NCBI GenBank assembly: GCA_025201365.1
Contig: JAIXMF010000014.1
Location: 248,001-312,000 of the forward strand
Direction: 5' to 3'
DNA: 64,000 nucleotides
DNA from: Syncephalis plumigaleata
Lineage: Eukaryota > Zoopagomycota > Zoopagomycetes > Zoopagales > Piptocephalidaceae
Below the pieces are notes generated by a model that did not search any database, had not been told where the DNA came from, and saw nothing but the letters and a program-made list of their open reading frames with translations. Positions 30,708-62,718 of this stretch are shown here, in pieces. Made by a program: the position numbers and the translations under genes. Numbering within the stretch: the stretch's first letter is position 1; every line of letters starts with the position of its first letter.

Positions 30708-31822
30708 TTAGTTCTCTTCGTAATCATTGCATGTTAACGGGGCGACCGACGAATACTTTGAGGCGGGAGAGGCCAATGGCGTGTCGATGATCAAGGATTT
30801 GGATGTAGGAATCTGTGAAAGCTTAATGAGATGTCTCGTCTTGGGTCGATTGGGCAGTTTCGATGCTTTACGCATGTTCTGACAATGATTCAACAGGATA
30901 GTTGACGTAAGTAGCCTATGTAATAATAAAAGACAACTAGTGATTAGTACAAATGTCGACATTTTTCTATGTGCATGTAGATATATTCCTAGTAAGAATG
31001 AATATGATAACTTACCAATCGGCCACGTAGAACATGATTGCGTAATTGCCGCCAATTTGAAATACGATAATAATACCGCAAACTACGTTGCAAATCACGG
31101 CAAGACACATTGTCTGGATGCCATCGCGTGCCAGACGCTTCCATGCGTCGGAACCGAACATACTGTATTGCCTGTAGGCGATATGGCTGAAAATGGCCGA
31201 GAAGAACAAGCTAATCGGCATGGAGGCAAGAAACCAATAGAGAGGCAGATAGGTGGGATAATAAAGGACGCAACCGAGATTCGGCTCGATGGTAACGGGA
31301 CAGCACACCACTACGATGACGAGGAAGCCCAATTGCGGCAGTGTGAAGATGGTGCCGAAGATGGCGATCCAGCGCTTTCGACATAGAACTAGGTAGGCTT
31401 TTTGGAGTAGGACAATGCTATTGCACATGATGGCCATGGTATTAATGAAGCCACTGAGCCAGAATATCTTACGACAACAAAGACCGCTAAATAGAAGCGC
31501 GTACACCACCGTGATACCGAATGCCGTGCCCATAAGGGCCGGTGCTAAACAACACCAAGAGGAGAGTGTACGTGTTCGCGACATTACCATCCCGATAGTA
31601 ATTTTAAGATTACGTATAAAGATAAAGGTGGACAATAGAACGGCCGCGGTCTGGAATGAAGACCGAATATCCGCTCGCGAGTTACTTCTAGGTTATCGGG
31701 GAATTCCGTCATGTAGGCGACAGTGTCAACCTCGCCGAGCGGATGAAGCGGGATACCCATGAAGTAGTGGCATTTTTCAACCACTCCGTTCCCAAAAGAT
31801 CGTTGTTGTTGTTTACAGGCAT
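30708..31822 (-). CDS. 7TM receptor-like family protein, copy A (frame interrupted)
   Basis: Member of the five-copy family. The start at 31822 gives MPVNNNNDLLGTEWLKNATT (N-A-T glycosylation sequon) then MGIPLHPLGEVD. Membrane segments follow: TAAVLLSTFIFIRN, SSWCCLAPALMGTAFGITVV, CRKIFWLSGFINTMAIMCNS then IVLLQKAYLVL, a fourth with LPQLGFLVIVVVCC, YWFLASMPISLFFSAIFSHI, and GIQTMCLAVICNVVCGIIIV. The intron (30916-31015) falls inside the Trp codon of VADW, and the last exon (WLLTSTILLNHCQNMRK) supplies the seventh segment and a Lys/Arg/Ser-rich tail. Cys at the start of segment 3 and in LGCVLYY before segment 5 could form the GPCR-type disulphide. Single-base losses near 31657 and 31765 shift the frame in the N-terminal third. 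Confidence 0.8.
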
Positions 31823-33881
31823 TGATACTAAACTAAAATGTACAATAGGAATAGGGAATAGGGAAAATACTAGTAATAGGCGATGATTAAATATATACGA
31901 CTTGTATATATATATATATATTAAGAGACTGATATATAGATATATAGATATACAGGTGTCGGTAGTACGATGTAGGGTATTAACGGAGAATAAGCATGAC
32001 TAGAGTCCTTTGTAGCCGGAGCTGCCGCGGAAGAACTCTACAAGTCAAGCAGTTTATAGGTCTGTTATAGGTCTGTGCCATACGCGTGTAACTGTTGTGG
32101 CGTTAACCGGTGTGTACGTGTGTATGGATGGATGCGTGTATGTAGGAATGAATGAATGAATGGCTGGCTGGCTGTGTGCGTGCGTGCGTGGTGCCATTAT
32201 GGGTTCACGAACGATGCATGACCTTTGACATTGGATAGGCAACTAGACCCAATCAACTAATTCATTACAGTGAGATTTGGCTTCAGAATCAATCCATGTT
32301 TCCACACGCGCATTAAATTTGTATACGAATTAGGAAATGCACCAAGTGCCATTTACATGATGGCTTGGGATCGACAGTGCAACCATCACCGCTGTTACTA
32401 TTAATACAAGTATACAAGGAATACTGGGGCCATTCCATCATTAGCCAGTGGTCATCAGGTCTGACTGGTATGCTTGTCGCGGTTATCCTTCGATGATCTG
32501 AGCTTGAATTCTTTTCTCGGTAAACGGCCTTGCCCAAAGAAACACCACTTGCATGCGTTATCGAGGAAGGAGGAGGAGCAAGAGAGAGAGAGACAATAAC
32601 ATACATTCTTGTTACATTCTAGCATGTGTGTGCATGTATGCCTGTATGTATGTATGTATGTATGTATGTATGTATGAGTTAGCCATGCCACTGTTGCTGC
32701 ATTCCTGTCCGTGCGTTGAGGGAAATTATCAGGGATCACACTACCATTCTGGAGTTATTTTTGCTTACTTCCGATAACGGCTGTGTAGTATGCAGATCGT
32801 GCCGCAACCAGACTTGTGGTCACAAAATTATCAACGTACGAAACAATAGACATCGACACGTACAGGCACAAGTACACGTAACGTAGACGTACACGTCCAT
32901 GTACAGAATGTGAGACAAGAATACGTGAAAATAGCAGCGTTATTTGGACGAACACGCGGCGTTACGTGGATCCGACCTGGCTGAATATCCATTGAGTGTA
33001 ACATAACGTATGGTTCCACGACATATAGGAATTCGGAATATACCGTGGACTATTCAAGAAAGAAAGCAGCGATATTACTTTGACGTGAAAATAGTCGGGT
33101 ATTAGTTTGTATTATCTAATGTTTCAAGGAATGACCTTGATGATTATGATCAGTTGCCTGTTGCGCTAATGGTTTTCCCCTTATCACTATCGTTAATATC
33201 GACAATAGATTGGTAGTGGTGTAGAATACAATAAAATAGTCGGTATAGAATACTAGGCAACAACCTGTTCTTTCGTTTCCCTTTTTTCCTCTTCATCTAA
33301 ACTAGTGTGAAATACAGGTTAGAAAGTAGACCAAGAATAAGCGTGATATTGTGCCATGCAATAATTGCGCCATATGATAATCTTGTAATTCCCCTTCCTT
33401 TCTAATCAATGTTCCATTCTTCACCATGACCACTATCACGGGTCCATTATTTATTGATTAGTGTTGATAATACCATACCATGTGATTAATTCAAGAAATA
33501 AAGATTTGAAATGATATTTATTAGTGCTCTAGTGGTGAAATAGAGAAACACCTATATTAGCATCATAAGAATGCACTAGTGTGATGATTGACGGATGTAT
33601 GAACAGGATTACAAGTTAGCATTGATTCTAGACTGTCACAATGCGACATCCTCCAATGCACAATTCGGCCAGACAGACAGACAGATAGAGGCTGCTTCTA
33701 AAATGAGTAATATCCAATTTATGAACTGGTTTTTCCTACCTGTAAACTTGCTAGTAGTATAGCACTATTCTATACCCTGTCATGTCATGTCATGTCATGC
33801 TTGCGTAGAATAGTAATGTTATGTTTTATTCTTGTTAAATACTAAAATAATAAATGAAGGATATTATAGTTATTTTTAATG
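31823..33881. other. 2 kb gene-poor spacer with simple repeats
   Basis: No supported gene on either strand. It holds a (TA)n run (about 31904-31921), a GA-rich GAGAGAGAGAGA tract (about 32581-32593), a (TATG)n/(GTAT)n microsatellite of about 33 bp (32644-32676), a GCGTGCGTGCGT tract (about 32178-32190) and TCATG repeats (about 33779-33800). Short ORFs here are translated repeats. Confidence 0.5.
32644..32676. repeat. tetranucleotide (TATG)n microsatellite
   Basis: About eight tandem GTAT/TATG units, directly read from the sequence. Confidence 0.9.
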
Positions 33882-34944
<1,063 letters not shown>

Positions 34945-35803
34945 TTATTGATTAAATGATAATGAGTAGGTGCCACTACCATCGTCATTCGGTTTCATTT
35001 GAAAATTATCTAACGATAGACCGAATTTACCCAATACTGAATTGCCCAAATCTTTCAGTTTGCCTAGCATTTCATCTTTCTCTTGTTGTTCACGAGCTTT
35101 GAGTTTATCCGGTAAACGGAGTAATGCTGCACGACATGTTGGTGCAAGTGACGACGACTCTTTCTCCAATTGTTCGTAATCTAGTTTGACATCAATAAAC
35201 GATGGATGAGCATATACGTCATACTTTCTTTCTACTCTCCCTTCCTTTACCTTCTTGCGCTTGTTTGAGCGCGCCAAAACTGCCCACACGTTCATTTGCT
35301 TGTGCACGACGTAAACGCGCCTTGGCATAAGTGGGATCCATCTTCAATGCATTGTCGCATGAACGTACTGCATCCGCTGGTTGCTCCTATTACCACCATA
35401 TGGAATAGATTAGCGCGCTATTGCTTCTTTGTTTCTTTTAGTGTGCGTTTCACATCATTTGATACTTGCCATTTTCAATTCGCAAGCGGCTAGGTTCGCC
35501 CAGAACACTGCCATTAATGGTTCCAAATAACCAGGTGGACACTCGCGTATGGCTTCATTGTATTTTGCCGCTGCCTCTTTGAATTCACCTTGACCAAAAC
35601 ACGTATTTCCCTCCTGCTTCAACGCTTCCAACTTGACTTGTAGTGCCTGCACGCTGTCATGAGCATATGATACTACGTCATTGCATTGTCTTGCCTACCG
35701 CTAGTTCCTCTTCCGTAAGCGTTTTGTCTTCAGATACCGTGCTGTCCTCTATTATAGCGGCAGCTTCTTCGTGGACAGTAGTGTCTTCCTTGTCGGCACT
35801 CAT
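34945..35803 (-). CDS. TPR protein of the TTC1 type
   Basis: It starts MSADKEDTTVHEEAAAIIED (acidic N-terminus) and then has three tetratricopeptide repeats: LEALKQEGNTCFGQGEFKEA-AAKYNEAI, the repeat with EPLMAVFWANLAACELKM, and DAVRSCDNALKMDPTYAKAR-LRRAQANE. The C-terminal block has KLKDLGNSVLGKFGLSLDNF and ends GSGTYSLSFNQ, which is characteristic of TTC1. Metazoan TTC1 is an adaptor reported to bind Hsp90 and G-alpha proteins; the fungal role is unknown. Two or three short introns (one at about 35388-35468) and one frame uncertainty near 35250-35280 were noted. Start fixed by the acidic N-terminus following the last upstream stop. Confidence 0.85.
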
Positions 35804-35903
35804 TATGCGAAATACAGTCGAGAGATGAGAGATCTTTAGAATTCATACAACAAAAGAAGAAACGAGATATAACAAGAATGATTCACAAACAACATGTCTC
35901 TAT

Positions 35904-37088
35904 TTATTTTTTACCAAATGAAAATGTAATCTTGTTCCCTCCTAGTCCACTTGTATTACCACTCTACCATTGCCAGTATCAGTAATGCTCCTCTATTATT
36001 ATTATATTGTACACTTACCTTTTTATTAAATAGTGATAGAGTCTTAGCAGGACGCGTTGTACTAGTCGATGCCACGCTAGTGGTGGTCGTGGTCGTGGTC
36101 GTGGTCGTTTCTTGCTTGACTTCATTTGACGCATCATTTGTGCGAGATGCTGCTTCTCGATGCATTGACGCTGCCTGAACACGCGCCAACTCTTTCTCCA
36201 TTCTTCGTTTCTCTTTATCGCGTTGCTTTTGTCCGTCTACCTTACGTGTGGCTTGCTTCATCTCTGTGAAACGCTATTTATTATTATCATCATCATCATC
36301 ATTAGTTACATGTCATGCATGACACTGATGTCACATACTTTTTTATGATTATGGTCGTAGGAACTAAGATGATTCTCCCATTCGGATACTTTCTGATATC
36401 GTTTATCGCATAACTCGCAGTAGAATACCGAGGAGATCTCATTGAGCTCCTTCTTGATCTCTTGTTGCTTCTCCACTTTAAGCTAGTAAATACAAAATAA
36501 ATAAACGTTCATGCAAATAGCTCATACTCACTTGTCGTTCTATTCGTTCGGCATCTGTCTCTAGTATTTGTCGTTCACTCTCGAGAAGACGAGGTCCCGC
36601 GGTAGCTGCCAAATGCATTGCATTGTCATGTTCCTCCAAACCAAGACCCATAACATCCTGTTTTACCATCAATGGAATTGGATCCACACGACCTGATATC
36701 ATCATCATCATCGTCGTCATGATTAGCCATCTAATAATGTCAAGTTCATTAAGGTTACCTTGTTGCTCTCGACCCAATCCTTGACCTGACTGCCAGCCCA
36801 TTTTACTTAGCAGTCGAAAACCGACATTACTATCGCTAATAGGTCTATCCAGCGATGCTTGTTCCACGTCTGTCAAGTCCACATATCCGGTCGGTTCGAG
36901 GAAACTACTCGACGTGTACGTGCCAGTCATACGATGCTGTTGTTGCCAACAAATATTGGTAGGTTGTGTTCGGCCTACCATGATAAAGCACTCACCATGG
37001 CCATCTTCATTTGACGATACAACGTGTACTCCTCCGGCAAGTTGTCCTCATCGGTCTCGGGAGGTTTGTTGGACGATGACGAATTCAT
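35904..37088 (-). CDS. G-patch and C2H2 zinc-finger protein (GPATCH8-like)
   Basis: The start at 37088 gives MNSSSSNKPPETDEDNLPEE. A 57-nt intron then leads to HRMTGTYTSSSFLEPTGYVD. The G-patch reads NVGFRLLSKMGWQSGQGLGR then EQQG, continuing over an intron into RVDPIPLMVKQDVMGLGLEE. A single C2H2 finger follows (FYCELCDKRYQKVSEWENHL-SSYDHNHKK), then a Lys/Arg-rich helix (RDKEKRRMEKELARVQAAS), a Thr run and the tail SGNTSGLGGNKITFSFGKK, recovered by splicing at 35963/35964. G-patches activate DEAH helicases in splicing and ribosome assembly, and the order G-patch, U1-like finger, basic helix matches GPATCH8/ZNF804-type proteins. Specific helicase partner unknown. Confidence 0.85.
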
Positions 37089-37352
37089 AACGAGCGTATT
37101 AACAGCGACACAGCTATTGTTACTACAAGTTGATATGGTACTTTTCGACAATACAACAATACAGTATAAGATGGCGTATCAAATAGAACTCTTTCGTTGA
37201 CGTATTTCAATATCACTAGCAATGTAATTGTCAAGCAAGCAAGGAGATAAATAGAGGAAGAAAAATAAAGATGGCAATCACTCTTTGACTATTCCCTTTT
37301 TCTAAACACAAATATATCTCCTCCTCTGCCACCACCACTAGTTGCATTCGTT

Positions 37353-37904
37353 ATGGACGGATTTCCTCCCGAACAGTTCTTTACTACTTCGGCCAGTCTC
37401 GTTGATTGCGTGGACAGTAGGTGATCCCGTGTAATAGTGAGATAAACGTATGCTAATCTGAAAGTATACCACCCTGTTAGAGCGTCTAGTAGTTGTGCTA
37501 CGCGATGGACGTAAGCTATTTGGCGTGCTACGCTCGTTTGATCAATTCGGTAGGCAATCTATTCGTACTATTATGGCTGACGATGAATGTTAATACTGTT
37601 GAACGCGCGACTTGTTGTAGCCAATCTCGTGCTACAAGACACGGTGGAACGACTCTACGCGGAGGGAATCTATTCCGAATTGTACCGCGGTATCTATATT
37701 ATTCGAGGTGAAAACGTAGTATTACTAGGCGAGGTGTGCCTAGACACGGAGGAGGATATCCCGTTGCAGCATGTCAGTCCGGAACAAGTAATGCAGGCGC
37801 AGAAGCAAGAACGCGACGCACGCCTATTACGAGAACATCGACGAGACAAAGCACTCTACAAGCATGGATTCAGTGTTGATTTTGCGGAAACCGATCTTTA
37901 TTGA
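37353..37904 (+). CDS. LSM1: LSM1, cytoplasmic mRNA-decay Sm-like protein
   Basis: Three exons. Exon 1 gives MDGFPPEQFFTTSASLVDCV. Exon 2 gives RLVVVLRDGRKLFGVLRSFD (Sm1 motif). Exon 3 (acceptor TTGTTGTAG) gives ANLVLQDTVERLYAEGIYSE, GIYIIRGENVVLLGEVCLD (Sm2) and a basic C-terminal extension (LREHRRDKALYKHGFSVDF). The Sm fold plus long C-terminal helix is specific for Lsm1, which with Lsm2-7 and Pat1 binds the 3' end of deadenylated mRNAs and promotes decapping. Length of about 150 residues is normal. It converges with SPO11; the stops are only 80 bp apart. Confidence 0.93.
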
Positions 37905-37983
37905 ATACTCATGATACTATACTATTATTATTATTGTTATTAATTCGCTTTACTACATTCCTTGTATTGCTACGTATATATTC

Positions 37984-39944
37984 TCATGTTGATGACGATG
38001 ATAGAAGTCTTGCTAATACATCGAGTAGTTCAGGCCATTGTAGACTGGATAAACATTCCAACTCTTGTTTCACTCGTAAGAAGAGCATACGTTGCAAATG
38101 CAATCTAAACGATATTGATAGTATTACGGTCATCATTTGGATTGAGTATGATGATTATCACGTTGCTTTACCTTAAATTACGATGTCTAGCTATGATCGG
38201 TAATTGCAATAGACGAGTAGCTTTCTGATAATCATTCATTGATAATGGTAACCATGATACATCATTCTCAATTTGACTAGTAATGAATACACATCATTTA
38301 ATAGATATTAGCATAACAGGTAATCCATCTAATACTTACGAGAGTTTTGACATGAGATCAGGTAGACAAATGGGAATAATAGATGGACAGGCTAGTTGAC
38401 GAGCATTCTATCGTTGATTATCGGTATAATGTTAGCGAGAACAACATAGAATCATTGAGAAGGTACATACTCGTGCACCATACATGTACGTAATGGCAAT
38501 ATCGATACCTTAATGTCATATCATTATTAATAGGTAATATATAAATGAGTTAGCTCCCCTCTTATTACCATAAGGATCCCAATCTACCAGGCAATAGATT
38601 CTAAAGTCAACAATATCATATTAATTATGAACAAAAAAGTAAGCAGCTCGATTAGAGTACTTTATCGATTGACCACACGAATACGCATTTGCTTGCATAG
38701 TATGAACTAGTTTCTGTGTTGCTTGATCCTACAATCGTGTAATTGATACGTTTGTCGATGCTGCATGACAATCTACTTACTGGATATCCTTTGCCCTTTT
38801 GTTTAATAATTGAATTGGATTAGCATTCAAATCATATTCAATATATCGATTATTTACCGTAATAATGAGAGTAAATGGCAAATACGCAACTAATTGTGTT
38901 GCTACCAATTGATGAAAGAACGCCTATCATATAGTTGTTGTTATCATTAGATGTACATCACACTAGTAAGCATTTATCTTACCTCTTTCTCGACAATTAA
39001 TATTGATCGACAGGAATGACGCAGCTGTATAAGAGGAGTAGAATAGTCAACACTAGAATGCTAGTCAATGCTGCTTATAGCTTATCTTTTATAAATGCCA
39101 AATCTGGTATGAATTGTATCTAAGATAGTTTCGTGTTAGCTAACCGAATGCATCAATCAATAGTTGACTTGCATTAGTGGTAGTATGCGAATGTTCACAA
39201 ACTGACCATGATGATGATGATGATGATGTCGTTAATGAAAGAAACTCGACAGGTCCAGCTACTAATCCATTATAGGCAGCTCTCTGTATTGATGATTAAT
39301 TGTTACTATGTTTGGTTTGTTCTTTCGTAGAATTAACAACTTGCCACGTTGAATGCAGCTCGTGGTGTATTGAATGTACTTGACAATCGTTTAAGAATCT
39401 ATACTATCATTTAAGCAACAAACAAGCAATAGTAATAGTGATAGTGATATTGGTGAATACTTACTGCATCGGTAGTGGATTGGCATTTAAACAGATTAAC
39501 ATCTCGATAATAGATCTCACTATGCATTGCATGCGTTTACTTTCATAATATGACTCGTGTATATGCACTTACCGTTTAGAAATGATAGTACCATGCATTA
39601 ATGACTCGTGGCATATCTCCAATACACGTAGATACCTTACTGCGATACAATGCATCAGTGAATGACATCATCTCGAGTGTAGTCAGTGTACATACGTAGT
39701 TGCAATCGACTCTTATCATTAACTAGCATATAGACTAAAACCCTGAATGACTCGATGTCATTGCTAAAGTAGTCACTCGCCTTGAGTAGTTCCCTTAACT
39801 TACTAGTAGTAACATGACAGGTTAGCAATAAGCCTTGTCTCATGTGATTACTCACTCTACTATGGATGACGGTGTATCTCCCTCGACTAGTTTAACTGTC
39901 AAGTAGGCGACGCTTTGCAGCAATAGTTCAATTCGATGTGTCAT
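37984..39944 (-). CDS. SPO11: SPO11, meiotic double-strand-break topoisomerase-like protein
   Basis: The gene is split into more than ten small exons by about 50-60 nt introns, so no long ORF shows it. Read in order: MTHRIELLLQSVAYLTVKLV; VDKLRELLKASDYFSNDIES; LRYLRVLEICHESLMHGTII-SKR; SEIYYRDVNLFKCQSTTDA, which carries the catalytic Tyr in the winged-helix IYYRD motif; ILKRLSSTFNTPRAAFNVAS; YNGLVAGPVEFLSL; a Toprim start with ILIVEKEAFFHQLVA (metal-binding Glu); GKGYP and DQATQKLVHTMQ; IYCLVDWDPYG-IDIAITYMYG (Toprim DxD, usually DADPHG); ARQLACPSIIPICLPDLMSK; and QIENDVSWLPLSMNDYQKAT. The stop is at 37984. The Toprim acid pair is DWD. The start is uncertain, as an upstream exon (MSLYAHQARYGIDL) is possible. 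It implies meiosis, or at least its genes. Confidence 0.9.
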
Positions 39945-40795
39945 TATTGCCCTATAACAATAGAGATAAATAAGAAAATAAATAACATAACAATAGTAAG
40001 GATACTAACCGAGATCGATGCCATATCTCGCTTGGTGTGCATATAATGACATGGTGGTACATGGTGTATGCTCGTTGTCGTGAACAATAAACTTAGAAGT
40101 GTCGTGAATCAAGTTTAATCAACAATGAGATTCTTTTCATTCATCGTATGGGTGTATTTTCATTACCTGATTTTACGCATGTTAGCGCAGGTTAACAAGG
40201 CATGATGTCACCTTCCTTAGACAAATAGACACGCGTATGGAGTTGATTGATTTGATGCATATGTACATATCAAACTAAATCACCAATATCTTTGCTTTAT
40301 TTTATTCCATAACTGCAGCATTATCAGTTTTATAATAGGCTATGTGATTGATCCATCATCCAATATATAACGATGCTTATGATTGGATTCAGCATTATCT
40401 ACGCTAATTGTGGAAAACAATAGAGATGGCCAGACAAGTACCTCGTACAACGAGGATAGCATGCCTTTGGCCATTGTATAGCGCTTCGAGTAACACTAAA
40501 ATGGGTATCTTACCTTGTAATGCCTCGGTGTATCATTGACCGACATTCATGCTGGAGAATGATGATTGCAATTGCAAAAACAGGTTTATAAGGGTATCGT
40601 TCATTTGACAATGCGAAGAACAAGGTCCTACATATTTTCACGCCAAATAATCCTTTTTACAAGCCATTTCATTTCATTTCAGTATTATTCTTGCGCTTAT
40701 TCCTATAATTACATTTAACATCGATTGCTTATTATATACATACATATAGATACATATACATACAAGTGTTCCTGCCTTTATCATCCAAAATAAAC
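39945..40795. other. intergenic between SPO11 and 7TM copy B
   Basis: No supported gene. The right side has CATACATATAGATACATATA repeats (about 40738-40762) just before copy B. Confidence 0.4.
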
Positions 40796-41827
40796 ATGGT
40801 ACTATTTGATTATAACACCGATATAGATCCCAGCTGGAAGATGAACGCTCCAAAAAGCTGGGGTATTCCCGTGCATGAGTCGGGCGAGACTTATCTGCCC
40901 GATTTCATACTAGAGCACAGCGACGATCTGGCCACTACTCAGCGACGTCTATGGCGAATCTATTTTCAGCTTATGTTTAATTTAGCGGCCGGTTTTGCCT
41001 TTAGTATAAACATGAAGATGGCCGCTGGCATGCTACGATACCGATGGAATACCCTCTCTGCTTGGTGCTGTTTTATACCCTCTCTGTTTGGCTTTCTACT
41101 CGCCGTTTTCTATTCTCTCGCGCTATTCTCCGCTTACTTTAATTGCCGCAAAATGATATGGTACATTGGACTTGGGATTACCGTGAGCATCTTCTGTAGC
41201 AGTGCCATCTTACTGCAAAAAGCCTATCTGGTACTATTCCGACGTCGATCTATCCTCGTCGTGGGCGGTCTATTCATGCTACCGCAGCTTAGCTTCTTCG
41301 CCATTGTTATGTTCTTCTGCGCTGTCACACTCGACGACGTCACCGGCTGTGTTATTCATTATCCTCGATTCCTACCCTGGTATTGGCTCGCGGCTTCCGC
41401 GCCCATCAACGTGTTCTTCTCTGCTATATTCAGCTACGTTGCTTATAAGCAGTACCGACAGCATGGATCGGATGCATGGCGACGCTTGGCACGCGATGGC
41501 ATCCAAACGATGTGTCTCGTGGTTCTATGTAATATCATTTGCGCTTCATGTATAATCCTTAAAGTCGGCGGTAACTATTCGGAATTCTTTTTCCTCGCTG
41601 ATTGGTAAGTAGTCTTGTAGCATGTTTTTATTTTATTATTCTGTTTTATCATTTAGCTAATTAGAATTGACAGGTCAATCACATCAACTGTGCTAGTGCA
41701 CCACTGCAGTCAAATGCGTAAGGCCTCTACCGTCGCGCGTTCAGTGGGCTCGAGCGGATCGTGGAAAAGCAAACAAACCATAAAATCGATCGCCATACCT
41801 ACTACACGAGGTGCCGATCATTATTAA
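40796..41827 (+). CDS. 7TM receptor-like family protein, copy B (intact)
   Basis: Two exons (40796-41604 and 41674-41827) encode about 320 residues without any break. N-terminus: MVLFDYNTDIDPSWKMNAPK then WGIPVHESGE. Hydrophobic segments at about residues 55-80, 90-118, 122-150, 158-180, 198-222, 240-264 and a seventh from 275 across the splice. Cys in NCRKMIWYI and Cys in TGCVIHY could form the TM3-ECL2 disulphide. Conserved cores are AILLQKAYLVLFRRR, MLPQLSF, SAPINVFFSAIFSYVAYKQY and DGIQTMCLVVLCNIICASC. The intron (69 nt) splits the Trp codon after FFLAD, phase 2, as in all other copies. The last exon reads SITSTVLVHHCSQMRKAS and then a Ser/Thr/Lys/Arg tail ending ADHY. It is the only copy on the plus strand. 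Ligand and G-protein coupling unknown. Confidence 0.85.
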
Positions 41828-42135
41828 GAATCGCATTTCTTAACACATGCGACAACCCTTATACTATCATCCAAATGTTCTTATCATATTTTAGAGAAAA
41901 GTAGCAGTAATTGTTGACATCTAATGAGCTGTATACGAGTAATATTTTGATTAACAAAAGCAATAAAGTACAACTATTTGTAATTTTATCTGTTTCAGTA
42001 TTATAGTGTATACTGTTTGTGTTCAGATAGTAAATACCTTTGAAAAGGCTCTATCTATTTGAGTTTCATAGGTTACTTTCAGGACCAAAATACACTATAC
42101 TTGTTCCTCTTATTCTATTTTGTAAACATTCTAAA
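41828..42135. other. short spacer, ERCC8 promoter
   Basis: About 300 bp without ORFs between 7TM copy B and the ERCC8-like gene. Confidence 0.35.
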
Positions 42136-49654: not shown

Positions 49655-49702
49655 ACCTGATTTTTTATTATTATTCGTATACTGGATGTATAAACAATTA
49701 AC

Positions 49703-49933: not shown

Positions 49934-49972
49934 CTAGTAATGTTCTCTCTCTCTCTCCCTTATTATCGAAGC

Positions 49973-51518: not shown

Positions 51519-54500
51519 ATGTATCCAATATTACGGGTAGCCACTACCATTACGACTAGTAGTAATGCAAGACATTATAGACTAATAACACAAGCAAGAT
51601 ATGGTCTTTCTAAAAGTATGTATAATAGTATAGACAAGCTAAAAAGAAAAAAACTAAACAACCTAATAATATGTAGCAATGGCGACTTTAGGACAGTTGC
51701 GTATTGGTGATATTAGCATGCCTGTAATAGAGGCTAAAACACCAGAACGCGTACCTACTAATACAGGAAGGATAAACCTGAATAATCAGGCAAGTATCTA
51801 TCATTTACGATATGTATATGTATATATATTAATACTAGTGAATAGGAAGTGTTAAATCATATACGCTGGATGTTACAAAAAGATATGCTCGGACAAGATA
51901 TGTTTCTAGTAGGGTACTAGTTATTCATAGATAGATAGCTAGATAAGCATAAGCATAATTAATCTCTCTCTCTCTTGCGTAATAGACCACCTGGACCCTT
52001 TCGTCGTCAACTAGTGATGACCTATTTGAATTTAACGCAGCGTGAATTGGAATATATCGCCATTCATCGAGATACGAGTGCTGATGCTGATCTGAAGCAA
52101 CGACGCGAGATTGGTGGAGATGGTCGTAAAATCATATGGAATGATAGTTGTGCAGTACGCGTAAGTGACCTACATATATCAATCATATGTGTGATTGTAG
52201 AATGACTCATTTACTCTATCATTTAGGCTGCAATCAATGGTCGTGTATTACTGATTGATGGTACGTTTAATGATGATTATATTAATTCACAACTGAATAA
52301 TGATTATATAGGCATTGAAAAGGCAGAGAGAAATGTATTACCCGTACTTAATAATCTATTAGAAAATCGAGAAATGAAGTGAGTACAATTGGATTGATAT
52401 CATTGATGATGACGATGATAATGATTTATACGTTTATGATTGTAATATACTAGTTTAGAAGATGGTCGACAACTACTTAGTCCAACGCGGTATGATCAAC
52501 TTGCCACACTACATTCTTCGTCTAATTTAGATGCATGGCAATTGACGCGTGTTAATGAGCGATTTCGAGTGATTGCACTTGGTGTGGCGGTATTTATCAT
52601 TTATTCAAGTAGTATACGAACGATTACTTATTTTGTAATGTAGACACCACCTTATCCTGGCCATCCGTTAGATCCACCATTTCGATCACGCTTTCAGTTC
52701 AGATATGTTAATGAACCATTAATGCTGGATAGTACACGTAACAACACTCACACCTATCCTGCATGGCCTAGTACAGCTCGTGACATTATATCGACTGTGC
52801 AACAAGCAAGCGAGCTATCCAAGGAAATAGGTGGGTTAGCATTTATACTAACTATGCCAATCTAATTAATCGGTAAATAGATATGGATACACGATTGCCC
52901 GTATTTCCTCAGGGATCTTTGAATAAGTTGCAGCATTTACCGTCAAAATTGTCATCATCGAATGACTTGCTATCCAGTGTCTATCCATATTATCGAATTG
53001 ATCAAGGTATTGTGATAATAATGCAAAATAAACTATTACTAAATTCTATTCAAGGATTGGATGAGAGACAGAGAAAGCTATACGATGCATTATTGAAACA
53101 ATTCAATATCTCTAAGAATGTAGGTGATTATGTATTATACTCTACTACATTGTCTAATCTGCATTTAGACAAAGAATGAAAATGCAATAACTAAACTTGC
53201 ACTAAAGGATACTGATATATCGAGTATCGCTCAAGTACAATTGACATACAAAGATGGCGACACAATGGAGTGGAATGTACAACGAGGTATGTTCATTCCT
53301 TTATCACCTGATATTACTAGTTACATATTGACTAATGAATTAATAAACAGGAAGGCATTCATTACTAAATGATCAATCTATTAATAGCAAGCTTAGCGAG
53401 ACACTTAGAATACGCAAAGTATTGGCAGATTTATATGCAGCTCATGCAGTCTCCGATATATGTTTGGTATGATAGCACGATTGTAGTAATTGGTAATAGC
53501 AACGATTAATATCTATCTATCTAGATTGGACCCAAAGGGTCCGGCAAGTCATGGGTGGTTCATCGATTTGCAGAGCAGTTAGGCTATGCGCCCAACTATA
53601 TCTGTACCATCCAACTATATCGAGATATGCCCGCTAGAGATCTATTACAAAGACGTGTTACGGATGCTAAGGGTAATACGATGTGGTAAGTAATGTTTCC
53701 GTACTCTATTATATTGAATTGATATCTTATTATTTATATAAATAGGCAAAATTCATCTTTGGTTGAGGCTGCACTCTCTGGCCAACTACTTGTATTGGAT
53801 GGTGCTGAACAAGTGCATGCAGATATGCTAGCAACATTACAACGTCTACATCATGATCGGTAAGGAGAGGCTGAAGGGGAAAGGCAATGCATAATGCATC
53901 ATGGATACTGATCTTATTTGCTAGAGAGATCACACTACCAAATGGTCAATTCTTAACGGCTAATTACGATGAAATCAAGGCAGTATCCCGATTAAATGAT
54001 CAGGTATGTCATTCACCATTGTTGAATATTGATCAAAATAAGCTTACGGAAATACATGTAGGAAATGAACGATAAGGGCATCTTCAAAATTCATCCTTCA
54101 TTCAGGATTGTTACCATTGCGAGTGCCGATTTAAAGGAAATAGATTCAAAGACAAGAAGTCAATGGAAGACTACACACAATTCTAGTGGTAATGGTAATC
54201 GATCCACATCATGGCTTACTTCCGAGGTGGCTAGCATGTATACAGTCGTGTATATACCATGGCCAGATACCCAGGTAAAGAGCGTTAATAATGTAGAGTG
54301 CAATAGGTAACATATCATTGACTAACTAATCATAATAGGAGGAGAAGCAAATAGTAAAAGGTAAGCTATACTGGGAGTAGAATGTTTCAGCATCGTTGTT
54401 ATAACTTGCAATAAATAGCGGCTACTGGCATATCTGATGATAGATTGGAGCCATTAATGGATCTAGTGGGTAGACTTCGACAAATGTCAATCGATACAGC

Positions 54501-57500
54501 TGGACAATCAAGTGCTCTATTTCTATCAACAAGGTATTTACATGATGTATTTATACATATATATATATATATGACATGTAGATTAACGTGTATATATACT
54601 TGTTAGACAGATCATTCGTGTTGTTAATCAGCAAATGGCACTGGGTGAGTCAACACTGATACCGGCAATAAAACGCGCACTACATACGGATCTATTACCG
54701 AAATTACTACATACGACAGTCGATGAGATATTAAATGACGATATCGAATTGAGTTCATGGCAGAATGACAAGGCAAGTAGATGCAATGATACCTGAATAA
54801 ACAGCTGTATTAATCATAGTAATCAATAGATACAAATGAAAATGAAACACGCCAATACTATGAATACGACTGCCTCGTTAACTAAAGAAGATGCAGCATT
54901 AATACCGACAGCAGGAAAGTTCTTCAACAATTCTGATCAATTATACATTCTAAATGCTATGAGAAATGATCTCATATCCGGAGAGTACATACTACTTATT
55001 GGCAATCAAGGTGTAGGCAAGAACAAACTTACAGATCGTATGCTTGAATTGGCACAAGTACCACGACAATACATTCAACTGCATCGGTAATATAATGCTG
55101 CTGCTATTACCAATTAATAGATCTAGACTAGAACTAATACGATATTTAGTGACACGACTGTTTCTTCATTATTAGTACAAACATCCATTCGTGATGGTGT
55201 AATTACCTATCATGATTCACCGTTAATTCAAGCAATGCAACGCGGACATGTTGCAGTTATAGATGAGGCTGACAAGGCACCCACACACGTCATTGCTATA
55301 TTGAAGTCAATTGCTGAGAAGGCAGACCTACTACTACCGGATGGTCGTCGTTTATGTTGGCCACTCGATAAGCATATCCATAATGAGAGTGAAGAAACGA
55401 TACCGTCCAATGGTGTAGCGGTGCATCCAGTAAGTGACACGATTAGACTGTAGAGATCATCAGCTAATATATTCATAGAATTTTCGTATGATTTTATTGG
55501 CAAATCGACCTGGATTCCCATTTCATGGCAACGAGTTCTTCTCTGTTATCGGTGATGTTCTTAGCTGGTAGGTTAAAAGTATATATACATACACAAAATG
55601 AATTGCTTATTAATCATTACGATATAGTCATGTAATATCTAATCCGAATATTGATTCCGAGTTGGAATTACTCGAACAGATTGCGCCTAATGTTCCGGAA
55701 ACAACGAGGAAATCATTGGCATTCGTGTTTCGTGATCTGAGAAATGCATACAATGATAGTCGTCTACTCTATCCATATAGTCTTAGGGTAAATGAAAGCA
55801 ACACACTCACTATGATATGCATTTAAATGATTGACATTGATGATTATACACGTAGGAATTGCTACACGTTGTTAAGCATATCGAGGTAAGATTACCTATG
55901 GATTGAGTGGCAGTAATATTAAAACAACATATACATATATATGTATGTATACATGCATGTATGTAGAGATATCCAAATGAATCAATTGGCCATGTATTAA
56001 AGAATATCTTTGATGTGGATATTCATCGACATGATGCAAGTCAAATCATCAAGGAGATACTAAATCGTCACAAGTATGTGTAATGAATTGAATATGCGTA
56101 TGACATTAATCCATCATTTAGGATATCGGCAGATTTTATTGGATTAGACTCGTTGACTACTGCACAATCTGTAAATCAAACGAAACTAAGCATTACCTAT
56201 GAACCTACCAAACCTAAAGAAGTATGATGAATGTGTGCATTATTTACGAGTATATGCTAATACTTATCCTTTCTAGATGTCAACACCAAAACATGGTAAA
56301 ATCGATGAATCTAATGCACCACATGTTGGTGGAAATACAGTAAGTAATAGAAAGAGCAGCATGCTTAATAATAACAACTCTATTACATCTATCTATTAGT
56401 GGGCAGGTGGCACTGGTGGAAGTGATACTGCTGGTCTCGGTAAATAAATACTATATAAATAGTTGCTAGTCTTTAATGTTGATTGATTAGGCGGTCGTGG
56501 TGGTCCATATCGTTTGGATGCAGGACATGATATTCACCAGATATCCGATGTATGTAGCATTGTTAGTATTATCTCGTCTTATTCTATTATGCTAAGATGA
56601 AATGGATCATAGGAACTGAAGCAGCAAACACCGGAACATGTGAAAAAGGCAGCTAGAAAGTTGGCAAAAGAAGGATTACGGAATCGATTGAACGAGATTA
56701 AAATGAATGAACCGGACTACGAGGTGAGACATCTAATAGATTACACGCTTCATGTTACTGACTATGTAAAACAAGTTATATAAAGAGCTTAAAGATAATA
56801 TACGTGTTGAAACGCAACAACTACAATCCATCCTGGAGGCAGCTCAAATGCGTACAAATGAACGTACATGGCTTCGACATCAAACAGAGGGTGAAATGGA
56901 CGAGCAGAAATTGGTTGAAGGTATACGATGCATACGCGTATTAACGATGGCATTCTTGCTGACGTGCATTACTACTACTATTATTATTATTAGGACTATT
57001 AGGCGAGCATACCGTATACAAGAGACGTGGCATTAGTCAAGAGGACAGTCTATTCGGTGATGCATCTCCCATACGAATGAAATTTGTACTCGATGTGAGT
57101 GCATCGATGTATCGATTTCGTCGAATTAAGCAATGCATGGAGGTGGCACTAATGGTAAATAGGATGTAGTGTATGAGTGTAAGCTTACTAATCAGTGGAT
57201 GAAATAGATTATGGAGGCATTGGCACCATTCCCAAAGAAATTCACCTATGATATAGTAGGCCATTCGGGTGATTCAGCGTGTATTCCTTTGGTTAATGCG
57301 GGTGCTCCACCAGCTAATGAGAAAGAGAGATTAAAAGGTAAGAAGGATAAGTGACAGCACATGCTTAATCGCATTACTCACAGACCCTTAGTATTACTGG
57401 AGATGTGGGCTCATAGTCAATACTGCTATCCGGGAGATCATGTAAGTTGAAATGGCAAAGTGAAGGGTTAATGTCAAATTGACATGCTCCTATTGTTAGA

Positions 57501-57978
57501 CGATTGAAGGATTGGAATTAGCGGTCAAGACTGTTGTACCCTCTGATGAGGATGGTAAGCATGACAAGCGTTATAATGTCTTCAATGTCTTCAAGATCAT
57601 TCTAACTAATTGTAAATGTAGAGAATGCCATTGTTATCCTACTTTCAGATGCAAACTTTAATCGATATGGCATTACACCGGATCAACTACTAAAGGCGAT
57701 GACACTTAGAAGGTAAGCGTTATTGTTACTACTACGATACAGATCAATGCTTAATGGAATGATTATAGGAATGTTAAAGTGGCTGCTCTGTTCATTGGAT
57801 GGCATCCACGGGAAGCTCAAAGGTAAACGCATCTTTACTCTAATGGTATAATAACTAACAAAATGGAATATCTAGGATTGTTCAGGAATTACCTCGAGAG
57901 AAAGCATTTGTTTGTCATAATCATGCTGATGTACCGCATGTATTTCAAAAGATATTTGCATCATTCCTTCAACAATAA
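51519..57978 (+). CDS. VWA8-like mitochondrial AAA+ / von Willebrand A protein
   Basis: More than 30 small exons. Exon 1 (MYPILRVATTITTSSNARHY-RLITQARYG) looks like a mitochondrial presequence and splices to MATLGQLRIGDISMPVIEAK. A first AAA+ unit has FLVGPPGPFRRQLVMTYLNL, YIAIHRDTSADADLKQRREI and VLLIDGIEKAERNVLPVLNN. A second has IGPKGSGKSWVVHRFAEQLG. A third has LLIGNQGVGKNKLTDRMLEL and VAVIDEADKAPTHVIAIL. The C-terminal VWA domain has FVLDVSASMYRFRRIKQCME (DxSxS metal site) and IVILSDANFNRYGITPD, and the end reads WHPREAQRIVQELPREKAFV. VWA8 is a dynein/midasin-like ATPase of the mitochondrial matrix side. It is common in animals and protists but rare in Dikarya. The DxSxS MIDAS is intact. 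Confidence 0.9.
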
Positions 57979-58038
57979 CGATAACAGTCTTTTATTATTA
58001 TAAGTATGATTCCTAATAAACTGGTTGAGATCTAGTCA

Positions 58039-58993
58039 TCATCGACATATAGCGGTGTGTTTACATGAGCTGTTACAATGGTATACGAGAATCGATGATG
58101 TAAATAGCCTAATGTCGCAATCAATATTAGTACGATAAGAGGGGATTGATGCTATCATTTACTCACCAGTCTACAACAAAGAACATATCGGCAAACTTGC
58201 CACCCACCTCTAATACAAGACAGGTGGCGCAGAATATGTTGCAAATAACGGCTAGACACATGATTTGTATACCGTCGTGCGCCAGCTCTTTCCACGCCTC
58301 CATTCCGTAGCCCTTGTAGTGTTTATACGCTATATAGCTGAACAACGCCGAGAATAGAACGTTAATGGGTATGGTCAGTCCAAACCAGTAGAACGGCACG
58401 AATGTCTCGTAATGAATGGCACAGCCACCGTTAACATTGGTGGTTACCCAGGATGACATTAAGAATATGGGCATGAATGCTACTTGAGGTATGATAAGTA
58501 GAAGACCGAGTATCAGAACCTGTTTCTGCTGCATGAGTATGATATACGCTTTCTGTAGAACGATAGCGCTATTACTTGCACTGGAGAGTGTCATGGCAAT
58601 CACGAAGAACCATACGACGGGTCGACAACTCGATTGGTCCAACAGGTATAGGATGACGCCGAATCCCCAGCCTGTGCCGAGAATCGCCGGTACTGAGCAG
58701 AACCAGCCTGATAGTACGCGTGGACGCTTAGCGATCATGACTAGAGCGATAAATAGATTTCGTACGAATATCGTCGACATCATAAGATCGACAGATAGTT
58801 CAAAGTAAATACTCAGCATTCTAAGCTGCGTTTCCCGTCTATCATCGTGCATCTCGACCACATAATCGTACAAGAGCATTTCACCCGTTGGATGAAGGGG
58901 AATCCCCCATAGTCTAGTGGCGTTTATTCTCCAGTCCACGTTTTCTTCTCTCAAATACTGCATGGTCGTTATTGTCGTGATTGTCGTATTCAT
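58039..58993 (-). CDS. 7TM receptor-like family protein, copy C
   Basis: Exon 1 (58167-58993) reads MNTTITTITTMQYLREENVD, then DWRINATRLWGIPLHPTGEM (N-A-T sequon). Conserved parts are SGWFCSVPAILGTGWGFGVI, CRPVVWFFVIAMTLSSASNS, AIVLQKAYIILMQQKQ, IIPQVAFMP, NGGCAIHYETFVPFYWF, TIPINVLFSALFSYIAYKHY and DGIQIMCLAVICNIFCATCL. The intron (58109-58166, 58 nt) splits the Trp codon after FFVVD, phase 2. The last exon gives LFTSSILVYHCNSSCKHTAI then CR and a stop, a much shorter tail than copies A, B, D and E and without the usual MRK after HC. It could be a truncated tail from an indel. The reading frame is otherwise intact. First in a tandem of three on this strand, about 60 bp from the end of VWA8. 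Confidence 0.85.
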
Positions 58994-59961
58994 ATTGATC
59001 GATGGTGTTATCTCGTATGTGTGTATACGTATGTGCTCCTATTCGTATTCATAATAATAGTAATAAAATAATAAGAATATAGCCATGAACCTATAGGATG
59101 ATGATGATGATGATAATGATAATGGTGCTGATGATGTTGGAGAGGAACCGAGAGAAGGGAATGGAAATAAGATGCTAGTAAAAAAGTTCGGCAATTAGGC
59201 GGATACTTGAGGATTAACCGAAGGTGCCATAGGATCTATATTAACAAATTACTATAATGACCACGATAGGCATCGTTTATCGTTATGATATTGGAAGGCA
59301 AACCTGTTTTTCTTGTACATGAGTAACATGTTTGCGCACATGTTGAAAAGAGGAAAAGGGAAATGGAATGAACAACACGAGCCAATAAATTCTTCGCTGA
59401 TTTGGACAGAACTTCGCTATGCTACTCACTAGGCGAGACTAGCATTATCTGCCAATCATTGGTCAGAATCGCTTACATAGAGGTAGTATATGGAAAGTAG
59501 ATCTGTATGAGATGGCATCAGATGAGGCCTTTAACGCGTATAAAATGCACGCGGATAGGTGCATGTATGTATGTATGCATGAATGAAGTGACGACTTTTT
59601 TATTTCTTCTCTTTGACAGTTGATCAGTTTTTGATGAATTCATAAACATGCCTCTAATCTGTCCTGTAGATGAGCATTGGATTATAGCTGTTTATAGAGC
59701 AAAAATGAATACTGAATAGTTCACACTGAGAATAAGAGCTATCAGAATAGTGCAAGCTATGTTGCACTTTTATGTTATGCAGTCTTGACAGCCTATTGTT
59801 ACTGTTGCTATTATCATTTCTTCCTGTTCTTAACCTTTCAATGCTTGATCGATTTTGAGTTAAACAGTACAGCATTTCAAATCAACGACATAGATGTTAG
59901 TTATAAAATAAAGTAATTGGTAAAGTTCATTTTAATATATTACTACAGGTGTTGATACACT
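58994..59961. other. intergenic between 7TM copies C and D
   Basis: No supported gene. It has a GATGATGATGATGAT tract (about 59099-59113) and GTATGTATGTATGC near 59564-59577. One reverse ORF (59654-59875) is unsupported. Confidence 0.4.
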
Positions 59962-60996
59962 CTAATGCCATTTTGAGCCGATTTCACTGTATATTTCAGC
60001 TTGAGTCAGTTCCACGATATCATTGTCTTTTGTCATGGTTTGAATCGTGCTACGAGCGTCACCCTGATGAGATGATCTAAATGTTCTCTTTCCACCGGCA
60101 TTACAATGAATAGAAAGAACGGTGGAAGTGACTAACCTAATAGGCGTAAATGAGAATAAGTCAGTTGACAAGGCATGAACACACGGCATTACCCACCAAT
60201 CTACTATGAAGAACATTTCGGAGAAATCGCCCGCCACTTGTATGACGATGCAAGTCGCACAGGATATATTACACGCCACTACTAGACACATGGTCTGTAT
60301 GCCCTTACGCGTCAGTCTTCTCCACGCATCTGATCCGTACTTTTTATACTGTTTATACGCGATAACACTAAAAGTGGCCGAAAATAAAAGGTTGATAGGT
60401 ATGGTGGTGGCGAACCAGTAGATAGGCATGAGATAGTGGAATTTAGCACCGCAGCCTCCTTGTATGTCCATGGTAACGTAGGATAACCGCAGGCTTAGTG
60501 GCAGTAGCACAATTTGCGGCAATACAAGGATAATCCCCATAACTAGTACCAACTTGCTTTTCACGAAAACAAGATAGACCTTCTGCAATACGATGGCGCT
60601 ATTACACAGGCTGGAAAGGAGGATTAAAAGGGCAAAAAACCAAATGATGATACGACAATTGAACACGTCAAATGCAAACGCTATCACGGATAATCCCCAG
60701 GAAATGCCAAGGGACGCGGAGATCAAGCAACACCAGCCGGATATAAAGTGAGGCATGCATTTAACGACATTGAGCGATATTCGAAAGTTGTTCGCAAACA
60801 TGAACATCATAATTGTGTTGCAACAAATTTGCAACAATATACCGAGTAGTCTAGCGCGAGTAATGCCTAAATCATTGATCGTCTCCATGATAAACTCGGT
60901 CGTGTACATTTCACCGGTCGGATTAAGCGGGATACCCCATAGTGTCGAAGCATCTTTCTGCCAGTCAAGATTATAGGCGCTTACGTGTGGCGTCAT
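59962..60996 (-). CDS. 7TM receptor-like family protein, copy D
   Basis: The ATG is at 60996 (MTPHVSAYNLDWQKDASTLW, then GIPLNPTGEMY); longer reading upstream uses a non-ATG start. Seven hydrophobic segments: ICCNTIMMFMFANNFRISL; SGWCCLISASLGISWGLSVI; CRIIIWFFALLILLSSLCNS; LVLVMGIILVLPQIVLLPLS; IYWFATTIPINLLFSATFSV; GIQTMCLVVACNISCATCIV; and the segment after the splice, LVTSTVLSIHC. The intron (GTGGGTAATG...CCTATTAG, 60 nt) is a multiple of three without stops, so its retention would insert 20 residues into the protein (VMPCVHALSTDLFSF region), a possible regulated or leaky event. ECL2 has GGCGAKFHY. The C-tail is the longest, ending IYSEIGSKWH. No glycosylation N-A-T here (DAST). Confidence 0.85.
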   Translation of the reverse strand: MTPHVSAYNLDWQKDASTLWGIPLNPTGEMYTTEFIMETINDLGITRARLLGILLQICCNTIMMFMFANNFRISLNVVKCMPHFISGWCCLISASLGISWGLSVIAFAFDVFNCRIIIWFFALLILLSSLCNSAIVLQKVYLVFVKSKLVLVMGIILVLPQIVLLPLSLRLSYVTMDIQGGCGAKFHYLMPIYWFATTIPINLLFSATFSVIAYKQYKKYGSDAWRRLTRKGIQTMCLVVACNISCATCIVIQVAGDFSEMFFIVDWWVMPCVHALSTDLFSFTPIRLVTSTVLSIHCNAGGKRTFRSSHQGDARSTIQTMTKDNDIVELTQAEIYSEIGSKWH

Positions 60997-61683
60997 AGGA
61001 GCAATAAGAGGAATAAATAGCGTCAATTAGAAGGAAGAAGTATCAATGAATTATTGTATCGATAAATGAATGCAGAAAAGGGGTAGTCGATGAATGTAAT
61101 GCGCTTTAAGACGAAATTTCCTACGGCAACATTGCTGTGTATCGAGGTTTCCACGCTATGCGAAACCGGTTTACATATGTGCTTGGAAGGAATGATTGGT
61201 GCAGTTGAATGATTGTAATGGCCTATGTGGCATAATTAGATGCACCAAGCCTGGAACGAGAAAAGTAGATGCTACGGGTAAACAGAACGAATTATCGAGG
61301 ACGAGAGGAGAGGCAACAGGTTTACACGTATCCCAGACAATTTACGAGGTTGCAATGGTTATTGTATTGCTCGTGTTGCAACTTTAGCGATATTTAGAAG
61401 GATCATACCGATTTAGGAAGCATAGTTGTACAAATCTAATTGTAGTTAATACCAATTCGACCTTGTTTGGTTTTACCAAGTAGTAATATATAGGGTGTTT
61501 CCAATCAGTTAACACAGTTAGCGTTTAACTCTTATTTTTATTAATAAACAGTCTATTCAATTAATGGTGCTAATGAATGCGCAAAAGTATTTATTAATAA
61601 CAAAAGTTAGTGTCTAACAATGTTAATTGGTTGGAGAAAGTCTTGTACAGCAGGTAATAACTAGAAAGTAACCGCCTACCATT
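60997..61683. other. spacer between 7TM copies D and E, with a TIR element
   Basis: Apart from the 157-bp TIR element (61491-61647), no gene is supported. A 63-codon forward ORF (61196-61387) is rejected as unsupported. Confidence 0.4.
61491..61647. mobile_element. short TIR element (MITE-like), TA-flanked, 157 bp
   Basis: The left end TAGGGTGTTTCCAATCAGTT continues AACACAGTTAG; the complement of the right end reads TACAAGACTTTCTCCAACCA then ATTAACATTGTTAG, so the ends are imperfect inverted repeats of about 35-40 bp, bounded by TA. TTTATTAATAAACAG and AATGCGCAAAA inside are shared with the element at 49703. No coding capacity. It lies immediately downstream of 7TM copy E. Confidence 0.6.
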
Positions 61684-62718
61684 CTAATTTGTCTTTGTCA
61701 GTTGATTAGCAGATGATTGCTCATCATTCGGCGGATTCTCTACATCGTGATCAGTATGACATAAGATGTTCTCGGTCTTTGGACGATTCGATAGAGAGAT
61801 GGCCTTCCGCATGCTATAGCAGTGTCGGACGAGAATGATCGATATGAACAGCCTGTATTACATCTGTTAGTTGACAACGTTCTATTCATCCGTATCATTG
61901 TTTACGTACCAGTCGACTAGGAAAAACATTTCCGATAATTTACCACCAATCTCAAATAGCATTCCACAGGCGCAGACTATATTGCACACGACTACGAGGC
62001 ACATTGTCTGGATGCCATCGCGCATCATTCGTTTCCATGCCTCGGATCCAAACGTGCGATACTGCTTATACGCGACATAGCTGAATATTCCGGAAAACAA
62101 CGCGTTAATCGGCGCTGTCGATCCGAACCAAAACCACGGCAGGAGTGACGAGTAATTGACGACGCAACCCGTGTCTGCAGCGACGGTCACGGGGCTAAGC
62201 ATCCATCCAGCGTACATGAATCCTAGTTGAGGCAGTATAAATATAATGCCAACGATCAACACCCATGGTTTCCGATAGAGTACGAGATACGCCTTGTGCA
62301 GCACGATGGCACTATTGCAAATAATAGTCGTTGTAATGGCGAATCCAACGAACCATGATATCCTACGACAAGTCAAACCGGTAGGAAACATCGATAAGGC
62401 CGCGATAAGTCCTGTCACTACACCTAATGCTGACGGGAATAGACAAAGCCATCCCGGTATTGAGCGTCGGTAAGTGGTGATGATTCTAACGGCGAGGTAA
62501 AAGTTATACACGAAAATATGACCGGCCAACAAATTGAGTAGAAGCTGACGATACACCCCGAATATTCGAGCTCTAAACTGCTCCTGATCACTCGCCACTT
62601 CCATGATATAGTCTGGCAGTGATATCTCCCCTAGTGGATGCATCGGGATTCCTACTATATAAGTGGCGTTCTTTATCCAATCAGTTCCAAGTTGATGATC
62701 AGTATGATCAAAAGGCAT
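61684..62718 (-). CDS. 7TM receptor-like family protein, copy E (intact)
   Basis: Exon 1 (61910-62718) starts MPFDHTDHQLGTDWIKNATY (N-A-T sequon), then IVGIPMHPLGEISLPDYIME. Segments: LLLNLLAGHIFVYNFYLAV; PGWLCLFPSALGVVTGLIAA; CRRISWFVGFAITTTIICNS and AIVLHKAYLVLYRKP; FILPQLGFMYAGWML; DTGCVVNYSSLLPWFWFGS; APINALFSGIFSYVAYKQYR; GIQTMCLVVVCNIVCACGML; MFFLVDW. The intron (61853-61909, 57 nt) is phase 2 in the last Trp codon, and the second exon encodes LFISIILVRHCYSMRKAISL and a charged tail (TENILCHTDHDVENPPNDEQ) ending LTKTN. An upstream non-ATG reading gives extra hydrophobic residues and is not used. Membrane protein of unknown ligand; family features as in copy B. Confidence 0.85.

Follow-up and report, generated by a model that had tools for sequence, protein, structure and literature searches.

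A 64,000-nucleotide window of the genome of Syncephalis plumigaleata (order Zoopagales, family Piptocephalidaceae), a fungus that we take to be itself an obligate mycoparasite, encodes five copies, here designated A to E, of what is probably a large and diverged Zoopagales family of seven-transmembrane chemoreceptors of the G protein-coupled receptor (GPCR) type that signal through few G-alpha proteins. The window comprises bases 248,001 to 312,000 of contig C46 in an assembly of 32.6 Mb. Mycoparasites make up the genus Syncephalis, and two mycoparasites, S. pseudoplumigaleata and Thamnocephalis sphaerospora, have had their genomes sequenced as such (PMC6784888, in the part available to us).

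Seven hydrophobic segments, the count given in the initial annotation of the window, are apparent as seven long helices in an AlphaFold2 model of full-length copy B (residues 45-82, 87-109, 117-146, 151-174, 192-223, 225-254 and 264-296), built with an alignment of 67 sequences and having a pLDDT of 89.0 and a pTM of 0.85. In this alignment, lysine plus arginine account for 38% and 30% of the residues in intracellular loops (ICL) 1 and 2 but for only 0.8%, 2.4% and 4.2% of those in extracellular loops (ECL) 1 to 3, an asymmetry that therefore places the predicted N-terminus outside. Of 66 sequences, 44 have an N-glycosylation sequon close to the N-terminus. Between transmembrane helices (TM) 4 and 5, the model has an ECL2 beta hairpin (176-180/184-188) containing Cys185, and a bridge residue that adjoins Cys117. 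Such cysteines, at the start of the third segment and in the loop before the fifth, had been noticed from the window copies, and they are now found in 66 (Cys117) and 67 (Cys185) of the 67 rows of the alignment of relatives (A3) and are both retained in all 79 intact representatives of the S. plumigaleata gene clusters. A basic residue at position 142, 25 residues past Cys117, is present in 66 of the 67 relatives and 78 of the 79 S. plumigaleata representatives, and TM3 ends with QKAY in 23, HKAY in 14 and ERAY in 9 of these 79. The spacing from Cys3.25 to Arg3.50 in class A receptors is likewise 25 residues. Also frequent are an Asn close to the inner end of TM1 (63/67) and a Pro in TM5 (61/67), and the TM7 consensus is DWxxTSxxLVxHC. 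Conservation is higher in the cytoplasmic half (2.12 bits over 115 positions) than in the outer half (1.71 bits over 124 positions; p = 2e-4), with its peak across TM5-ICL3-TM6.

Comparison of the model with the PDB by Foldseek returned 858 matches with E <= 10 and, by our reading, the best 50 of these are all GPCRs, 47 of class A and 3 of class C, which, with this program, supports the receptor reading of the initial annotation. Ten matches have E <= 0.001, headed by CXCR3 (2.5e-4), and by the same reading all ten are class A. Against a library of viral proteins, the three best matches come from giant viruses and bear the name GPCR family 1 or 3, and a few members of the family carry automatic UniRef names that begin 'G-protein couple' or '7TM GPCR serpent'. 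Function as an opsin, which would call for a retinal-binding Lys in TM7, is unlikely, as a Lys anywhere within residues 262-280 occurs in only 3 of the 67 sequences.

These matches, together with the cysteine at a 3.25-like position and its partner in ECL2, the 25-residue spacing to the basic residue, the ERAY variant and the TM1 Asn and TM5 Pro, could be taken to indicate true class A (rhodopsin family) receptors, namely diverged members of fungal class XV from chytrids and Blastocladiomycota, which likewise have the cysteines of TM3 and ECL2 and whose D/ERY has a variant counterpart in the basic site that closes TM3 here. The initial annotation had similarly assigned the cysteine layout to the rhodopsin class. 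The layout does fit, but other features do not: TM2 is nearly devoid of acidic residues (0.0% in the inner and 0.9% in the outer half of the 67 relatives) and therefore has no D2.50, NPxxY and CWxP are missing from the family consensus, PF00001 is not among the Pfam matches listed, and a second structural aligner ranked class C (mGlu2) first, with microbial rhodopsin and AdipoR2 high beside class A. As described in 2012, the fungal rhodopsin-family receptors consisted of 12 sequences from three chytrid or blastocladian species, having D in TM2, D/ERY and NP in TM7 (PMC3251606, in part), in contrast to approximately a hundred copies in the one genome here. Membership of class A is therefore unlikely.

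The Pfam scans were undertaken with E <= 1 and with two sets of proteins. For 67 members, 27 families were weakly matched, of which the 25 listed were each matched by one member and the others rank after E 0.36; for the second set, 40 members among which are the most divergent S. plumigaleata copies, all 19 matched families are listed. No GPCR model is among the matches listed for either set. The current scheme recognizes 17 fungal GPCR classes, each linked to Pfam domains (PMC13308352, in part), and the domains absent from both sets of listed matches are PF00001, PF05462 (class V), PF20684 and CFEM PF05730 (class XIV), PF01036 (class IX, microbial opsin) and those given for classes I-IV, VI-VIII, X-XIII, XVI and XVII in the part of PMC13308352 available (Table 1); PF12271 (Chs7) is similarly absent. 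From these profiles, the family appears to belong to none of the 17 named classes, in agreement with the earlier failure to recognize a named family. Searches of the S. plumigaleata genome with PF00001, PF11710, PF20684 and PF02076 gave no matches, but the control genomes were also silent and this result is uninformative. The initial annotation had named transporters and enzymes as the families to which a strong match would argue against a receptor; with 4, 40 and 67 proteins, no credible Pfam match of either kind was obtained (best E 0.34, 0.02 and 0.009, respectively; one member per family).

Four observations would fit seven-helix membrane proteins with a role other than that of receptors, as transporters, scramblases or trafficking chaperones resembling Chs7, the chitin synthase chaperone that is also a seven-helix fungal membrane protein. 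A Thamnocephalis member (P0082) has a UniRef name that begins 'Chitin synthase exp'; microbial rhodopsin and AdipoR2 score high with the second aligner; and two NCBIfam models are weakly matched, that of a prokaryotic Na+/H+ antiporter subunit by 6 of 67 members (best E 3.2e-4) and that of a sugar transferase by 7 of 67 (best E 0.017). The NCBIfam matches are judged to be due to chance; NCBIfam is a library of prokaryotic families, and the fold model favours a different reading. The likeness to Chs7 extends to the seven helices and that one UniRef name, but the Chs7 profile is not among the matches listed for the family and has distinct matches at three other places in the genome. Furthermore, the TM3-ECL2 cysteine pair in 79 of 79 representatives, the ECL2 hairpin and the conserved cytoplasmic face point to receptors, and a repertoire of this size would be unusual for a chaperone. 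A role other than as receptors is, overall, quite improbable. The Chs7-like matches are located at C223:1311651, C223:1331567 and C90:429300, two of the three being ~20 kb apart.

Two other receptor classes invite comparison. The features listed for class V, the cAMP receptor-like proteins, are a basic ICL1, Tyr in TM3 and TM5 and Cys in ECL1 and ECL2 (PMC3251606, in part); all are seen in the alignment of the Zoopagales family, which differs in having no D in TM2 and no Dicty_CAR (PF05462) among its listed matches. The Pth11-like receptors of class XIV are also a large seven-helix family, expanded in parasitic fungi and linked to host perception; the counts are 38 and 52 for two species of the mycoparasitic Trichoderma, T. 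atroviride and T. virens, and 61 and 106 for Magnaporthe and Fusarium graminearum (PMC3664084, in part). Pth11 is, however, described as restricted to Pezizomycotina (in the available parts of PMC3664084 and PMC12842992) whereas the present family was found only in Zoopagales and has no listed PF20684 or CFEM match. It resembles Pth11 in scale and presumed use and yet, by this comparison, appears not to be a Pth11 member.

The S. plumigaleata genome has 16 matches to PF00503 (G-alpha). Those above the family cut-off are two loci on C340 and their allelic counterparts on C257, and three further places, two of them with counterparts, are below it; of 14 control genomes, one (Thermotoga) matched, also below the cut-off. 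The two loci (C340:1095655-1109204) are ~11 kb apart and on opposite strands. In the mechanism we propose, a variable ligand site, differing from copy to copy, would be built from the N-terminus, which is short and may often be N-glycosylated, and from ECL1 to ECL3, held in place by a disulphide that connects the ECL2 hairpin with the top of TM3. On the other side of the membrane, the conserved cytoplasmic ends, with QKAY, HKAY or ERAY closing TM3 and KQYR.FGSDAWRRLARDGIQTM spanning TM5-ICL3-TM6, would constitute one common surface, presented to the few G-alpha proteins encoded at the two loci above cut-off. A large number of receptors would in this way converge on few transducers, as they do in other repertoires of chemoreceptors. 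A variable outer part, a conserved cytoplasmic face and few transducers would, by analogy, be the pattern of such a repertoire. The most likely use is to recognize host fungi, as well as other chemical cues, while the fungus germinates, grows in a directed manner and attaches. We infer disulphide formation, glycosylation, G-protein coupling, ligand binding and host sensing; host-derived cues are the obvious ones for a mycoparasite, a step we infer from lifestyle.

Receptors of the same GPCR type could, alternatively, be dedicated not to host recognition but to signals of the fungus itself or to general cues, such as mating pheromones, nutrients, surfaces or the distinction of self from non-self between hyphae. 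The characterized fungal classes do include pheromone, carbon and cAMP-type receptors (PMC13308352, in part), and there is no STE3 match in the S. plumigaleata genome, which leaves a pheromone receptor unaccounted for, with the control genomes again silent. The approximately one hundred diverging copies, however, far exceed what a mating or nutrient system usually needs, and the family has radiated separately in two genera. Self or general cues have a substantial chance of being the ligands, but are not what we expect.

With copy B as the query, matches with E <= 0.001 were obtained at 143 or more places in the S. plumigaleata genome, a lower bound as the search scores only the best candidates; contigs >100 kb account for 91 of the 143. 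Clustering of exon 1 at 95% DNA identity resulted in 93 clusters, 45 with one member, 46 with two and 2 with three. All but one of the 46 two-member clusters pair a copy from a contig >100 kb with one from a shorter contig, the pattern expected of what we presume are allelic contigs, and the existence of 46 such clusters at >=95% identity suggests that the genome is that of a heterozygous diploid or of an organism with two types of nucleus. Allelic contigs are numerous in the assembly (for example, C46 versus C69 and C43, and C57 versus C38), with a synonymous difference of ~3.8%. With presumed alleles merged, ~90 loci is a fair reading of the cluster count because at least two clusters (C362 near 197,300 and 197,600) resemble pieces of one gene and three single-copy clusters are on short contigs. 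A divergent member used as the query gave 151 matches and, among the matches listed, 19 places were outside the first list; grouped by position, these correspond to ~10 further loci, some fragmentary. The total in S. plumigaleata is, by this estimate, about a hundred. The window thus does contain five copies, but 'five-copy' does not describe the family, and the lineage-specific expansion that had been suspected is larger than was guessed.

One young subgroup has 10 sequences, some of which are probably alleles (L016, L018, L047, L048, L059, L068, L088, L099, L111 and L112). They are scattered over many contigs, with a mean DNA identity of ~0.85-0.93 for 1.1 kb from the start of the match and ~0.7 beyond, so that similarity extends past exon 1 and then drops. 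The 412-amino-acid (aa) NCBI model P0057 (C362 near 710,800) seems to be a fusion of two adjacent members, one complete and one partial.

Arrays left by past duplications could consist mostly of pseudogenes, and some decay is evident. Copy A in the window is broken, stop codons are present in 5 single-member clusters and 10 multi-member clusters contain disrupted or partial sequence. In 79 of the 93 clusters, however, the representative has an uninterrupted exon 1 match of >=200 aa. For the presumed-allele pairs, defined as members of the same cluster on different contigs (n = 44, from 42 two-member and 2 three-member clusters; 3 more were skipped for a stop codon), pS is 0.038, pN is 0.0066 and pN/pS is 0.17 (278.5 synonymous and 163.5 nonsynonymous differences). 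Purifying constraint therefore appears to act on most copies; wholesale decay is already contradicted for most of them and is very improbable as an account of the family. A few pairs, with 95.5-96% identity, could be young paralogues rather than alleles. For pairs of paralogues with 71-89% identity (n = 57, a set dominated by one young group), dN/dS ranges from 0.08 to 0.59, with a median of 0.43.

The first protein search identified 52 proteins, 16 from S. plumigaleata, 21 from S. fuscata, 7 from S. pseudoplumigaleata and 8 without a species name, one of which is encoded in the window. A profile search then reached one protein from T. sphaerospora, a member of the same order but of a different family from Syncephalis, and this protein used as the query gave 33 matches, 27 in Thamnocephalis, 3 in Syncephalis and 3 nameless. 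A tree was built, by a quick method and without bootstrap, from 130 proteins, with short sequences excluded (79 from S. plumigaleata, 24 of 27 from Thamnocephalis, 21 of 25 from S. fuscata and 6 of 8 from S. pseudoplumigaleata). All 24 Thamnocephalis sequences are on one side of a single branch (SH-aLRT 92) and the Syncephalis species are intermixed. It would therefore seem that the two genera inherited a common ancestral gene that then radiated separately in each, and that many of the duplications within Syncephalis predate the split of the species compared. No relatives beyond Zoopagales are among the matches listed in the three protein searches but, as these searches require shared 5-residue words, absence elsewhere, for example from Piptocephalis, is undemonstrated. 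The range apparent so far is two Zoopagales genera, Syncephalis and Thamnocephalis.

Taken together, these features lead us to propose, tentatively and with rather less confidence than we have in GPCR-type chemoreception itself, an eighteenth class of fungal GPCRs that may be confined to Zoopagales, have about a hundred genes, be independent of Pth11, have radiated separately in Syncephalis and Thamnocephalis and serve host recognition through few, perhaps two, G-alpha proteins. No paper was found that joins Syncephalis and 'G protein-coupled receptor', Thamnocephalis and 'receptor', or Piptocephalis and 'chemotropi', and a literature search for Syncephalis with mycoparasitism and host recognition yielded one review, on cultivability. 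In a 2025 survey of GPCRs in 1,357 fungal species, the available main text does not contain Zoopag-, Syncephalis or Thamnocephalis, and 141,666 seven-helix proteins were left unclassified (PMC12842992). Members of the family may be among these, or in the supplement without being named. Single sequences had already been flagged by software as GPCRs; a description of the family was not found in the literature, as far as this was searched. Within the same limit, host recognition by Zoopagales mycoparasites is undescribed at the level of receptors, and a family of this size would offer a concrete handle on it. GPCR counts based on Pfam can evidently miss an entire repertoire, in this case one comparable in size to the Pth11 complements of plant pathogens, and two separate radiations of one ancestral receptor provide a natural comparison for the changes that accompany a change in host range.

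The five copies in the window are located where they were originally placed, and the chain of motifs that was said to connect them is real. In these copies, exon 1 covers the protein from its N-terminus into the first part of TM7, and exon 2 the rest of TM7, the HC motif and the tail. In copies B, C, D and E, exon 1 is open in one frame and is followed by a single intron, TG|G, in the Trp codon after an Asp. Copy B is on the forward strand, with exon 1 at 40796-41604, a 69-base intron at 41605-41673 and exon 2 at 41674-41827; its exon 1 is NCBI protein P0005 (hypothetical protein BDF22DRAFT_695126, Syncephalis plumigaleata), with 100% identity over 270 aa. The remaining copies are all on the reverse strand. 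Exons 1 and 2 of copy C are at 58167-58993 and 58039-58108, the latter encoding a short tail, and are separated by a 58-base intron (58109-58166). Those of copy D are at 60197-60996 and 59962-60136; its 60-base intron (60137-60196) is a multiple of three in length with an open frame, so that an unspliced reading is also possible. Copy E has exons at 61910-62718 and 61684-61852, with an intron of 57 bases (61853-61909). Identity to the exon 1 protein of B is 41% for that of C, 42% for that of D and 44% for that of E, and 50% for the readable portion of copy A, compared over residues 54-270, similarities that, judged by the sequences, exceed chance by far.

Copy A has exon 1 at 31016-31822, encoding TM1 to the first part of TM7, a 100-base intron within the Trp codon at 30916-31015, and exon 2 at 30708-30915, encoding the end of TM7, an HC..MR motif and the C-tail. 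Tblastn with S. pseudoplumigaleata P0009, together with reading of the DNA, located two frame breaks near the 5'-end, and because exon 1 is spread over three frames relative to P0009 (31822-31757, 31793-31659 and 31656-31015), copy A is apparently either a broken gene (pseudogene) or the result of an assembly error. In the NCBI model of this copy (P0027), the sequence begins downstream of the first break, and a gap of 35 bases, shorter than any scored intron in the family (52-166 bases), spans the second.

A fixed phase 2 intron was a further feature of the initial annotation. The intron is in phase 2 in all five window copies and the Trp codon of the D-W pair is fixed, but the phase is not. 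Splice models could be scored at 115 of the 143 places, with 28 places that scored under 12 excluded, and 103 of the 115 introns are phase 2, 88 of these in D-Trp; the remaining 12 are phase 1, all in D-Trp and in the same codon one base earlier, as if the intron had slid by one base within the Trp codon. The phase 1 introns (for example, in L005, L006, L007, L103 and L108) are mostly in a divergent subfamily. Elsewhere in the window, there are two flavodoxin-like genes, presumably of the WrbA/Pst2 type, at 17682-18410 and 27786-28464, with ~10 kb between them. The Pfam matches of the first are FMN_red and Flavodoxin, and the second is known from similar reading frames only.

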